Source: Sistotremastrum niveocremeum HHB9708
Lineage: Eukaryota > Basidiomycota > Agaricomycetes > Sistotremastrales > Sistotremastraceae
Assembly: GCA_001630475.1 (NCBI GenBank)
Contig: KV419412.1
Coordinates: forward strand, 208,867-272,866
Length of the DNA stretch: 64,000 bases
Reading direction: 5' to 3'
Shown: piece by piece, positions 26,665 through 30,937 of the stretch
Position numbering within the stretch: position 1 is the first letter of the stretch
Layout: each line of letters begins with the position of its first letter
The notes under the pieces: model-generated
What the model was told of the DNA's origin: nothing
The model's input: the letters and a program-made list of their open reading frames with translations, nothing else
The model's database searches: none
Made by a program: the position numbers and the translations under genes

Positions 26665-28129
26665 ATGAGCTCTTCGCTCGCAGTTACTCTTTTATCTTCC
26701 TTTCAATCGTCTTTGTCAGTCCTTTTGACACTCTCTTACGGTCTTGTCGCCTCGAAACTCGGCATTCTTTCACCTGCATCAGCAACACAGGTTGCTCGAC
26801 TATGCATCCAAATATTCCTTCCTGCGCTCTTATTTACGAGTCTGGGAAGTCAAGTGGGAGCTTCTGACTCCAATCTGAACACGCTTTGGCCATTGATCGG
26901 TACGCTTTCAATTTCTTAACGATTTATCAGCTAACGACCTCGTCGCGTAGCCTGGTCGTTCGCCTATCCCATGATATGCCTCGCATTCACATATCCAATG
27001 GTTCGATATCTTCAATTCCCGACATGGACTCTCCCCGCTGCAGCATTCAACAGCGCGACATCTCTTCCCCTCCTTTTAGTCGATGCGCTAGTTGCCACCG
27101 GCGCTCTAGACAGCATCATCGGCGTTGGGCCAGATCAGCAGAAAGGACACACACGGCTCCGGAATTATCTTCTGATCAATGCTATGATCTCCAATGCCCT
27201 CACATTCACTCTTGGACCTCACCTTTTGAAGATTGGACACCGGCACATTGGTAGACGAAGAAGTAAAGGAGGAATTGCGATCGTGCATGATCGGATGAGC
27301 TCCTCTATTCAAGGTGGATTCGACGATTCCGCGGATCCTTTGTTGTCGGAGAGTATCAGCTCGAATGCCAGTGTACCATCGCTTGCCCAACCTTTCTTGA
27401 ACCGATTGCCAGAACCCTTGCGCGACACTCTCCTTTTCCTACAGAGCCTAATCAATCCGCCTCTCGTGGCAGTGATACTAGCGATCATCGTCGGAGAGAT
27501 AGGGTTCCTTCGGACCGCATTCTTTGAGAAGGAGGGCAGCTTCTTCCATTCGTGGCTTACGAAGAGTCTCGAGAATATTGGCAGCGTTTTCTCAACGTAC
27601 GTCGTACTGAACCCCGACTCTGTCGAACGCAGAATTGAAATATATTATACAAGTGTCCAAATGTTCGTCGTCGGGTGCAAACTGTACGAAGGGATATCAC
27701 AGACACATCACTCCCAACCTGACTCCGAGAGCGAAGCAGAGTCCTCAGATCTACCTCGTGATAAAGCGATCGGCGTCATTCCACTCACTTGGTTAATATC
27801 CCTCCGCTTCGGGGTCATGCCGATCTTCTCAACTACAGTCGTGTACATCCTACTCGCCCGTCAACAACTCGCTCAAGACCCCCTTCTATGGTTCGCCCTT
27901 ATCATCATGGCCACTGGGCCTCCTGCTATCCGTCTTGCTGCACTTTCCGAATTGAGTGGGCAAGGCCAAGGCGCACAGCAGGCAGTTGCACGTTTATTGG
28001 CGGTGAGTAAGAGTCATGCCCATGTTACTCAACGAGACTTATCTTGCTTGATAGATATTCTACGCTATCACGCCATTGATATCTTTTCCCGTCGTCGCCG
28101 CTCTCAAAGTGTGCGAAACATTTCTCTAA
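26665..28129 (+). CDS. auxin efflux carrier (PIN/PILS-like) family membrane transporter
   Basis: Exons 26665-26899, 26951-28002, 28055-28129 give 453 residues. The N-terminal half has five hydrophobic helices with the family pattern: LTLSYGLVASKLGILSPASA, then CIQIFLPALLFTSLGSQV (the LP.LLF motif), FAYPMICLAFTYPMV, and AAFNSATSLPLLLVDALV, the (F)xNsxsLPL motif that marks this family. A hydrophilic loop of about 90 residues follows, then INPPLVAVILAIIVGEIGFL and four more helices, including IPLTWLISLRFGVMPIFSTT and LIIMATGPPAIRLAALSEL, and the end FYAITPLISFPVVAALKV. In plants relatives move auxin; in fungi the cargo is unproven, and ER location is typical. The second ATG start was set by the clean hydrophobic N-terminus MSSSLAVTLLSSFQSS. 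Confidence 0.88.
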
Positions 28130-28629
28130 TCACGACCTTTACGACCTTTACGACCGCATTATCATTATATTCTGCATTCGCTCTAAATTATGATCCCTGT
28201 TATCATTCTGCTCGTTCAACGACCTTCTATACTCGTCTCATGTAATCATCGTAGACCTAATAAGAGCAAGGTATGAACTTACAATGTACCGCAAGCTGAC
28301 GATTTGAAATTGCTTGTGAAATCGAAGCATCGGCTAATACTCCTTTACGTAATGCCCGCACGACTGCCTCAGGCTGCCAGTGCGGGCTGCCATCTCCAGT
28401 CCCCCAAGTGCTTGCTCTGGTCGACATCGCTGATCCAGACCGATCTTATACTGCGCAAGCCTATCTTCTGTCTAGCTTGGTCTCTTCATCCGAGAACTCG
28501 GCTTGCTTAGCTTTATTCTGGCGACTTTACTCCGTCGCGCAAGTATTCAAGCCCACGACGAGACTCGTAGCTAATCACGATGCTTGCTTTTGGCTCTCAA
28601 GTATCTGGGATATCTGTGTTGACAAAGTC
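28130..28629. other. intergenic before the first Cdc42-like gene
   Basis: Holds a small tandem repeat ACGACCTTT x3 at about 28134-28157 in the 3' end of the transporter gene. No gene. Confidence 0.4.
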
Positions 28630-29411
28630 ATGAAATGTGTAGTCGTTGGTGACCGTGATGTTGGCAAGGTACGTGGTCGAACAGTGACCGGAGTTGTATA
28701 GACGTATGCTAACAAAGATTCTGCAGAAATGCCTCATGGTCACGTATGTTAGAAAGAGGTTTCCAGTGGAATACATACCTTCTGTGTGTATCCAAAGCGC
28801 TTTTAGCTCCTGAGCAGTGCGCTCATGAATGCTCGCCAGGATTGGACCGGTACCTCTGTAACGGTGATGATCGGAGAGGAGCCGTATACTCTCAATCTAT
28901 CTACTACAGCCGGTAATTGTTCAGCCTGATTGGTGGAAGTTTCTCATCACTCAATTACTGTCGTGCAGGTCAGGAAGACTACGATCAACTCCGGCCTCTA
29001 TCCTATCCTCAAACCGACGTCGTTCTCATCTGCTTCTGCGTTACTTCTCGCGCATCGTTTGAGAATGTCAAGAAAACATGGGTTCCAGAGATCCGTCATC
29101 ATTGTCCCGGCACTCCATATCTTATAGTCGGAACACAGATTGATCAGAGATCGGATTCTAAGGTCTTGGCCGACCTGGATAAACGAAAGGAGCGACCTAT
29201 CCTTCCTGAAGATGGAGAGAGACTCGCAAATGAAGTTGGTGCAGTCAAATATGTGGAGGCCTCGGCGCTCACGCAGATGGGCGTGGAGAACATCTTTCAT
29301 GAGGTGAAGCTCCAGTATGTTCTATAGCAACGTTTTCTCACACGTGGTCCGATCTCGCAGGCGATTATAGCAGCTTTGACTCCTCCCAAGAAAAGGTGTG
29401 TTGTGGTATAA
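28630..29411 (+). CDS. degenerate Cdc42-like Rho GTPase, copy 1
   Basis: Short exons joined by phase-compatible introns read [110 protein letters not shown] and the end [13 protein letters not shown]. The overall length and order equal Cdc42, and the CVVV end is a prenylation box with a basic lead, so membrane targeting is kept. But in Cdc42 numbering G12 is R, A13 is D, T17 (Mg2+ ligand) is K, T35 is S and switch I is changed, and D57 is T. Q61 and the TQxD guanine-specificity motif remain. Normal GTP/Mg2+ handling is therefore doubtful. Likely a pseudo-GTPase or an unusual regulator of polarity signalling; inference. Confidence 0.78.
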
Positions 29412-30124
29412 ATGCTTGCCCGCTATCGCATCGATATCTCCTGGCACCGAAACCTGATCCAAGGGTGCTCCTCTCGCCGAAACCAGATATGACTCCGGCA
29501 TACAGCCAGTCCACGATTCCTGGGCTCCCAGAAGGCAAAACACTCTCATTCATACGAGTGCTGTATTCTGTCTCCCCAGCCTGTCGTCAGACCTCTGAAG
29601 TCCTTGCTATCTCTACGATAGGCTTTACCTCTACGATCTGAGCCCGTTTGAATAGATCTGAGTATACAAGCACTTCTGATGTTCCGGCTGCTTCGCCATC
29701 TCAGTCTAAAATGTATTCGGAAAGCTCAGTTTTGGGTTGTTCATGAAACCGACATTGCCAGCATGGCAGCGCTTGCGAGCGATGCTGGAGATCAAAGGAT
29801 CTCCTGCGATGTAGTCAGCGCTATGCTTATACAGAACGGTATATGCATGAAAACTAGGGCGTTCGATCGCCCCAAGAGAAGAAATGGCATTTTCGTGGGT
29901 TCGGAATCAAATTATTGACAAGGAGTCAGGAACGCCTGACGCCGAATTCGGCTACTTGCGTTCCTTTTCAATAGCCGTCACTTTCAAACCTGTGCTCAAA
30001 AACTTGTGCGAATTGACGTGCTGTTCAGCCAGCGGGCATTATCGGACATCCCAGATTTATCTCTGAGATACATCTCAGCGCTTTCAGTGGATCTTCTCGT
30101 GTCATCCGATAATTTGTCATCGTG
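29412..30124. other. spacer between the two Cdc42-like genes
   Basis: Only short unconvincing frames. I looked for a third GTPase copy and saw none. Confidence 0.4.
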
Positions 30125-30937
30125 ATGAGGGACCGATCATCAAAATTAATACATATCATGGCTGTTGGAGACAGCGATGTCGGAAAGGTATAATAACTGC
30201 CGTGTCATACTCGTAGTGGTGCACAGTGCTGCCCTGACCCGTTTCTCAGAGAAGCCTGATACTTTCTTACGCCAACGAGAAATTTCCAAGCGAGTATATG
30301 CCCTCAGTAAGTAACAAGTTAGTTTTGCCTAGTATTAATTGTGAATATTGATATGTCATCTCCAAAGGCGTTCGTTGAACATGAGGGCACATTAAATATG
30401 GGAGACGATCAGCGCACTTTCAAACTGTCCACGATCTCTGGTGCTTCGTCTCTCTTTTTTTCCAGATGCACAGAACGCTCAAACAAGCCGCTCTTCCTAG
30501 GCATGGAACAATATGATCGATTGAGGCCCTTGAAGTATCCTGAAGTCACCGTCCTCCTCGTCTGCTTCAGCGTCATATCTCCCATCTCTTTCGACAACGT
30601 TAGAGACCTTTGGGTGCCCGAAATCGGGCATCATTGTCCCGACGTTCCCTTCTTTATTGTAGGGACTCAAGTTGATCAAAGAGGGGATACTCGGGTCTTG
30701 GAGAAACTCCAGCGACTTCGAGAGCGCCCTATTCCGACTGACAAGGGAGAGAAGCTCGCAAGTGAAGTCGGTGCACTCCGGTATCTAGAATGCTCTGCGC
30801 TCACGCAAATGGGTCTGAATAACGTCGTCGAGAAGGTAGATATTATATTTCGAAATGACATACCTTTCCATTTGAAGCGACTTCTACAGGCTTTACTCGC
30901 TGCTTTAGGACGACCCATTGATAGCATTGGCCTCTAA
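30125..30937 (+). CDS. degenerate Cdc42-like Rho GTPase, copy 2
   Basis: Tandem paralog of the gene ending 29411. Exons give [21 protein letters not shown], then [96 protein letters not shown] and the end [14 protein letters not shown]. In Cdc42 numbering T17 is R, T35 is S, D57 is T and Q61 is M; the switch I effector loop is unlike Cdc42. There is no C-terminal Cys box or basic patch, so it should not be prenylated. It shares S56/T57 and the A13D change with copy 1, so both descend from an already altered ancestor. The first ATG (30125) keeps the beta-1 strand in register. A soluble pseudo-GTPase is the best guess; decay toward a pseudogene is also possible. Confidence 0.72.

Follow-up and report, generated by a model that had tools for sequence, protein, structure and literature searches.

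The window, a stretch of 64,000 nucleotides on contig C19 (556,293 bases, in a 34.7-Mb assembly) of the crust fungus Sistotremastrum niveocremeum HHB9708, a species whose current name is Sertulicium niveocremeum, carries two CDC42-like genes in tandem on the forward strand. Copy A lies at 28630..29411 (exons 28630-28668, 28727-28783, 28840-28912, 28969-29303 and 29361-29411) and encodes a protein of 184 amino acids ending in CVVV. Copy B lies at 30125..30937 (exons 30125-30187, 30250-30306, 30368-30440, 30501-30835 and 30890-30937) and encodes 191 amino acids ending in SIGL. Each gene consists of five exons and four introns of 54 to 62 bases. In these gene models all eight introns have GT-AG ends and both products are open, free of stops; the same exon joins were recovered by spliced profile alignment against canonical Cdc42/Rac. 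The two proteins are identical at 91 of 192 aligned columns, and both align with Cdc42 from end to end, in keeping with the near-full-length alignment reported by the initial annotation.

Two public proteins correspond to these genes: P0001, a protein of 184 residues from S. suecicum, corresponds to A with 95% identity, and P0121, from S. niveocremeum HHB9708 itself, is identical to B over 94% of the query. The P0121 model begins at an internal Met (codon 30158) and not at 30125; this later start would drop most of β-strand 1 of B (30125-30160), and the longer frame from 30125 extends the Cdc42 alignment upstream. Whole-domain small GTPase homology was detected with the Pfam Ras profile, at 134.5 bits for P0001 and 103.4 bits for P0121, and A matched Cdc42 of the PDB with an E value of 3.4e-75. 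The best PDB match of a moderate P0001 model in Foldseek was Cdc42 (2odb), with a TM score of 0.74. AF2 models calculated from 27 rows each reached a mean pLDDT of 72 (P0001) and 76 (P0121). Much of the second half is good, block means rising to 91 and 94, respectively; the P-loop region is poor, helix 1 not being formed and residues 1-40 of P0001 having block means of 49-64, which is not readable as evidence by itself, and the position of Lys17 cannot be taken from models this weak in the nucleotide-binding half. Upstream of the pair, the neighbouring frame at 26935-28242 gave a Mem_trans (PF03547) match barely above cut-off (26.3 versus 25.7 bits), and no Pfam match was obtained in three downstream frames and one upstream frame around the pair.

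Altered residues of the nucleotide site

In Cdc42 numbering, A has R12, D13, K16, K17, S35, T38, T40, S56, T57, Q61, Q116, D118, Q119, S158 and A159, and B has S12, D13, K16, R17, S35, V38, H40, S56, T57, M61, Q116, D118, Q119, S158 and A159. At the end of the A P-loop (28654..28668; this and all following features of the pair are on the forward strand), G12R and A13D (GAT, 28657-28659) are followed by the conserved G15 and K16, and residue 17 is Lys (AAA, 28727..28729), so that the Thr acting as Mg2+ ligand is gone. The same stretch of B (30173..30187) carries G12S and A13D (GAT, 30176-30178) with G15 and K16 kept, and residue 17 is Arg (AGA, 30250..30252). Switch I and the effector loop of A, which span intron 2 (28781..28854), contain T35S, V36D, F37W, D38T, N39G and Y40T; positions 36 and 38-40 are changed in both copies, and 37 in A also. 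F56S and D57T are exon-internal in A (28900..28905, D57T being ACT at 28903-28905), and both recur in B (30428..30433, ACG at 30431-30433). Gln61 is kept in A (28971..28973) and replaced by Met in B (ATG, 30503..30505). Over positions 58-77, which include switch II, A differs from CDC42 at 1 of 20 residues (R66Q) against 64 of 184 overall, the region having been picked after looking, and B differs at 8 of 20. Further downstream, the TQID of A is followed by L119Q (29133..29147), and its prenylation box CVVV lies at 29397..29408.

By the G-motif definitions given in the sections of PMC8146680 that we drew on, G1 (GxxxxGK[ST]) is broken in both copies, reading GDRDVGKK in A and GDSDVGKR in B, and so is G3 (DxxG), which reads TTAG and TISG. 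Ser35 satisfies the loose G2 motif x[T/S]x in both; the effector loop is not intact, since D38 and Y40 are changed in both copies and F37 in A. G4 (TQID in A, TQVD in B) and G5 (SAL) are kept. The C-terminal CaaX box is present in A (CVVV) and absent in B (SIGL). The replacements at 13, 17 and 57 noted by the initial annotation were found codon by codon, and its description of one copy with CVVV and another with Met61 and no prenylation box also holds; T35S, which retains a hydroxyl, F56S and L119Q are shared changes beyond those that it named. In Cdc42, Mg2+ is coordinated by T17 and T35, and by D57 through water. The earlier view that the changed positions bind Mg2+ or phosphate is refined for A13, whose side chain is itself not a Mg2+ ligand.

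We compared A and B with a reference set in which 244 homologues were reduced to 235, by removal of the public A/B copies and of unsuitable lengths, and then to 234 canonical sequences. The latter were chosen by K16, T17 and D57, so these three residues are fixed by construction. The sequence excluded at this step, P0214, is an atypical Cdc42-like protein with Glu at 35 and Met at 16 that keeps T17 and D57. In the canonical set, 89 positions are fixed to 98% or more. A has another residue at 27 of them, B at 38 and both copies at 20, and at 5 of these 20 the departure is identical (A13D, T35S, F56S, D57T and L119Q). Ser35 and Gln119 each occur in 2 of the 234 canonical sequences. T17 and D57 are present in 223 of 223 other homologues, a count that comes from the best-scoring matches listed and is hence biased to canonical proteins. 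P0202 and P0206 (Mycena venus) are also atypical, in having T35S with Gly at 61 (P0206 also A59G), T17 and D57 being kept.

Splice joins restoring GKT and DTAGQ, which the initial annotation had named as able to overturn the losses, were not found, and the loss of these residues stands. Codon 57 lies within exon 3, so the choice of splice sites cannot restore D57, and among the alternative in-frame open joins of intron 1 that we tried (five in A, two in B) none restored GxxxxGK[ST]. Sequencing error is unlikely as well, because these residues recur in the counterpart of A from S. suecicum.

Origin of the copies from CDC42

The genome contains an intact CDC42 at C1:368.5 kb (GDGAVGKT, DTAGQ, end CVVL), which answers the earlier call to look for a normal gene elsewhere, and it also carries Rac, Rho1 and others (gene names assigned from sequence). 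CDC42 has introns at residue.phase 17.0, 36.0, 60.1 and 172.0, and A and B match it at all four and have no others; intron 17.0 is the only one of the four that Rac and Rho1 also have. The identity of all four intron positions shows that both copies arose by duplication of the fungus's own CDC42 at the DNA level. Retroposition is ruled out because introns are kept in both copies, and derivation from Rac or Rho1 because intron 17.0 alone is in common. Identity to the fungus's own CDC42 amounts to 120 of 184 aligned residues for A and 100 of 186 for B.

The relationship between the two copies was analysed with trees and simulations. In a tree of 33 proteins using all columns, in which the branch of B is long and the bootstrap had yet to converge, A, P0001 and B form a clade (99/94) beside the fungus's own CDC42 (94/70). 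When the nucleotide-site columns were masked (23 proteins, 137 columns), A grouped with P0005 (91/95) and B with P0123 (85/78); the grouping of A with B was not rejected on these columns (p-AU 0.256), nor was that of A with CDC42 (0.187). The Rho tree proposed earlier as a check thus joins A and B with all columns and does not with the masked ones. Both copies have changed at 43 positions, with an identical state in 11 (26%). Across 500 simulations of separate divergence, 9% of doubly changed positions were identical on average and the fraction 11/43 was never reached; a count of 11 as such occurred in 7 of the 500, because the simulations had more doubly changed positions (54.8 on average). 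Positions 98, 101 and 126, among the 11, carry states common in ordinary Cdc42s, and dropping them leaves 8 of 40 (20%), which was reached in 4 of 500 simulations. Near-invariant positions alone give 5 of 20 identical, with P 0.03 against the 9% expected.

A common pseudo-GTPase ancestor of A and B is thus likely on these comparisons, albeit not secure. The initial annotation had proposed one lineage and not two decays, which agrees with the tandem arrangement, the shared introns, the identical co-changes and the full-tree clade; the part that did not stand firm is the grouping itself, which the masked tree splits. The losses could instead have arisen separately in A and B by convergence, or have been exchanged by gene conversion, an explanation that we regard as rather unlikely. 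It draws on the masked-tree placements, on the number of identical changes reached by chance in a few simulations, and on three other paralogues that lost T17 too, each to another residue. Residue 163 points the same way: Met163 is found in both copies here (A 29277-29279, B 30809-30811) and Lys in the S. suecicum A, which would be a parallel change or a short gene conversion. Against separate losses, D57T and L119Q each require at least two base changes from the CDC42 codons, the excess of identical co-changes persists when the three common states are removed, and the full tree unites the copies.

Further degenerate loci and probable retention of copy A

The A/B pair belongs to a set, missed by the initial annotation, of at least 21 degenerate CDC42-like loci including A and B, a lower bound obtained by six-frame searches of the fungus's own genome with A, B and two pieces as queries. 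A second tandem pair lies on the reverse strand of contig C1 (about C1:382280-383013 and C1:380813-381538, within L040 at C1:375000-384999), about 12 kb from CDC42. Its P-loops read GDWLSGKN, with a natural Asn17 as in the laboratory dominant negative T17N and a tail CIVV, and GDNGCGKH. The four introns of the GDWLSGKN copy lie at or within one residue of those of CDC42. In the tree, C1a and C1b have very long branches and do not fall within the Cdc42-Rac set, so the CDC42 origin of this pair rests on introns and sequence and not on the tree. Single degenerate copies are found at C7:329 kb (L014/L041; tail CTIQ) and at C30:406 kb (L030/L052; GPDESGK followed by Met17; tail CTIQ).

The remaining 15 loci form a cluster at C10:619-855 kb (L042-L050; 16 match rows, two of them counted as one gene). 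They contain the C-terminal half of a Rho protein, many with the motif GPVLPEEGERLA..IGA.KYMEC, and no internal stop was found in any of the 16 match rows, a TGA at C10:697 falling beyond the likely donor. All 15 genes have a Val (GTN) codon after the residue at the last intron position of CDC42, which fits the same last-intron donor as in CDC42. Candidate last exons end in CaaX-like tails at C10:619 (CLVQ), C10:674 (CVLQ) and C10:821 (CFLQ); most others have none. Two pieces of this cluster had no Pfam match at E 0.001, and one C1 copy matched Ras at 78 bits. Introns and best matches suggest that the C1 pair and the C10 set derive from CDC42.

A P-loop exon with its donor was identified in 5 of the 21 loci (A, B, both C1 copies and C30). 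The strict P-loop pattern, which itself demands K, R, Q or E at 16, was found ahead of none of the other 16 (C7 and all 15 of C10), reflecting either true absence or an over-strict pattern. In all five copies with a clear P-loop exon G15-K16 is kept and T17 is lost, the residues in its place being K, R, N, H and M; K16 is the last codon of its exon, so its retention may partly serve splicing. Low-scoring forced alignments placed a residue at 17 in 6 of 13 C10 loci: Ser in L023 and L038, and Lys, Val, Ile and Glu. Given Ser17 in these weak alignments, loss of T17 may not cover the whole set.

Conservation of A was assessed against its S. suecicum counterpart. Of 184 residues, 10 differ between the two, every one of them within positions 85-183, and the first 81 residues, which include all the P-loop, switch I and 56-57 changes, are identical. 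With a split chosen after looking, this clustering has P 0.0025 for an even spread and P 0.0004 if the first part of A had changed at the rate of the rest. Maximum-likelihood dN/dS, the calculation that the initial annotation had called for, was 0.247/1.68 (about 0.15) for CDC42-A, well under 1, 0.332/3.06 for CDC42-B and 0.402/1.89 for A-B; dS is near or past saturation and the constraint of CDC42 itself is mixed in, so these pairwise values serve as support and no more. Neutral simulations of CDC42 with point changes only left 32, 7, 2 and 0 of 2000 runs stop-free at 0.3, 0.5, 0.84 and 1.2 substitutions per site. Because the altered half of A is unchanged in the sister species, a working non-switching mimic is probable over a dead gene: decay of A appears unlikely, and these sequence comparisons support its retention by selection as a protein. 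B has an open frame and a saturated pairwise dN/dS, and is known from the S. niveocremeum copy alone. The original view that the copies are retained and not decaying is supported for A, with its half identical in S. suecicum, dN/dS below 1 and no stops, and is weaker for B, known in one species with saturated dS.

A search scored on residues 4-58 of P0001 returned 21 proteins. P0001 itself reached 114 bits and the next protein, 60% identical, 61 bits; K16, T17 and D57 are present in all 20 apart from P0001. A wider pseudo-GTPase lineage across other fungi was rejected, as this word-based search gave no second species, beside that of P0001, with the altered half of A. The full-length searches covered the best 120 of 5175 and the best 120 of 913 matches, and more diverged relatives could be hidden behind these.

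A possible non-switching mimic of Cdc42

With T17 and D57 lost, a stable Mg2+-GTP state should be prevented, and A and B should not work as normal GTP/GDP switches. As the effector residues 36 and 38-40 (in A also 37) are changed, CRIB effectors should get no signal. From the observed residues, the CDC42 origin, the open frames and the conservation of A in two species, we infer that the proteins neither bind Mg2+ nor cycle, and that they bind regulators and damp Cdc42. The reading that we place ahead of the others, with a probability of about 0.42, is that A sits anchored at the membrane as a GDP-bound or nucleotide-poor mimic of Cdc42, occupying its regulators without signalling, B being a more diverged relative without the CaaX box. 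Replacement of T17 by Lys or Arg and D57T, together with T35S, would abolish the Mg2+ site. The CRIB-type effector loop is lost too, with the overall sequence, G15-K16 and the guanine-recognition motifs TQxD and SAL retained. The switch II face and CaaX box of A could then hold a regulator at the membrane, so that an exchange factor and/or the GDI of Cdc42 would be occupied by A and the signal not passed on.

The dominant-negative positions T17 and D57 are both altered in both copies. Cdc42 D57Y is a dominant negative, and Rac2 D57N, Rac1/Cdc42 T17N and Cdc42 D57Y are altered at the same two positions as A and B. Rac2 D57N loses GTP binding, keeps GEF binding and sequesters upstream signals, according to the portion of PMC6321979 consulted, and Rac1 T17N serves as a dominant negative in the excerpt used of PMC7609038. 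Cdc42 T17N is the form named in the entries for the solved DOCK8 and DOCK10 complexes (PDB 3vhl and 8i5f). These dominant negatives are engineered or disease point mutants, whereas A and B are natural genes in which both positions and the effector loop are changed together. Cdc42 and Rac with T17N or D57N are otherwise disease alleles or tools of the laboratory. Conserved paralogues that occur in nature with changes at these residues would point to evolution damping the polarity switch by the same trick.

Candidate partners exist: in the genome, RhoGDI matched at a single place, RhoGEF gave 18 exon matches and CRIB gave 4. The GEF-binding face of A is nearly unchanged over 58-77, yet A carries F56S and R66Q, at positions that contact GEFs and the GDI, so that regulator binding may be lost; this counts against a decoy. 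For B, the 8 of 20 changes in switch II and the absent CaaX box count against it too, and the dominant-negative-like reading is best applied to A more than to B. That the whole set of at least 21 loci are natural Cdc42 decoys, titrating regulators to tune or compartmentalise Cdc42 signalling, is a distinctly doubtful extension, prompted by the loss of T17 in five of five copies that have a clear P-loop exon and by several CaaX-like tails.

Behind the decoy reading we rank relaxed duplicates, a Mg2+-independent nucleotide binder and a nucleotide-free scaffold. That the copies are drifting or dying without a selected function, their open frames being due to luck or recency, appears unlikely. The many degenerate CDC42-like loci, those on C10 being more degraded than A and B, would fit such drift, as would the missing CaaX box of B and a C10 pair with dN/dS of about 0.58 (0.277/0.476). 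It is difficult to reconcile with an altered half of A that is the same in two species while 10 changes fell in the remainder, with only 2 of 2000 neutral runs stop-free at 0.84 and 32 at 0.3 substitutions per site, with GT-AG ends at all eight introns, and with a second C10 pair at 0.183/1.575, a third being saturated.

A binder in which Lys or Arg17 stands in for the charge of the metal and nucleotide remains bound, like Rnd or an ATP-binding pseudokinase, would account for the basic residue at 17 in both copies from different codons (AAA and AGA) and for the retention of K16, TQxD and SAL, and class (ii) pseudoGTPases that bind nucleotide are described in the sections used of PMC5593906. 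The same sections place the altered residues of Rnd proteins elsewhere, near switch II. Moreover, Asn, His or Met at 17 in three relatives shows that a basic residue is not the rule, and the new Asp13 probably adds negative charge near the phosphates. We regard this binder as markedly improbable. We give an equally small chance to a nucleotide-free scaffold with new partners, comparable to CENP-M or to the pG domains of p190RhoGAP. PseudoGTPases of class (i) are on record (PMC5593906, same sections), and each copy has a new effector loop of its own, that of A being the same in both species, but TQxD and SAL would not be expected to be kept without a bound base, and A retains switch II and CaaX.

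PseudoGTPases are an established group in what we consulted of PMC5593906 and PMC10211241; among the matches listed in the open-licence literature, no title on Cdc42-derived pseudo-GTPases in mushrooms was found. Rnd, RGK, CENP-M, fungal dynein LIC and p190RhoGAP pG1/pG2, as covered in the portion of PMC5593906 used, resemble A and B in small GTPase homology with degraded G motifs; A and B differ from them as fungal CDC42 duplicates that keep G4 and G5 and lose the Mg2+ ligands. Canonical fungal Cdc42 shares with A and B the full-length alignment, the four introns, TQxD, SAL and the insert region, and with A also CaaX and switch II, but keeps GxxxxGK[ST], DxxG and the effector loop. One genome thus holds an intact CDC42, the near copy A, the further copy B and far more degraded relatives, a system for following a GTPase into a pseudo-GTPase.

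In most of 111 fungal Rho proteins G1-G3 are perfectly conserved, according to the excerpt of PMC8146680. The Ras-family expansion of Laccaria bicolor (Rajashekar et al., via the same excerpt) likewise consists of recent duplicates in a mushroom, in which motifs were gained or lost; there, five of seven Rho proteins are Rho1, and that excerpt describes no Cdc42-derived loss of the Mg2+ site. Cryptococcus neoformans has a duplicated Cdc42 in a basidiomycete, as here, and the portion of PMC3738472 consulted describes its copies as paralogous signalling proteins.
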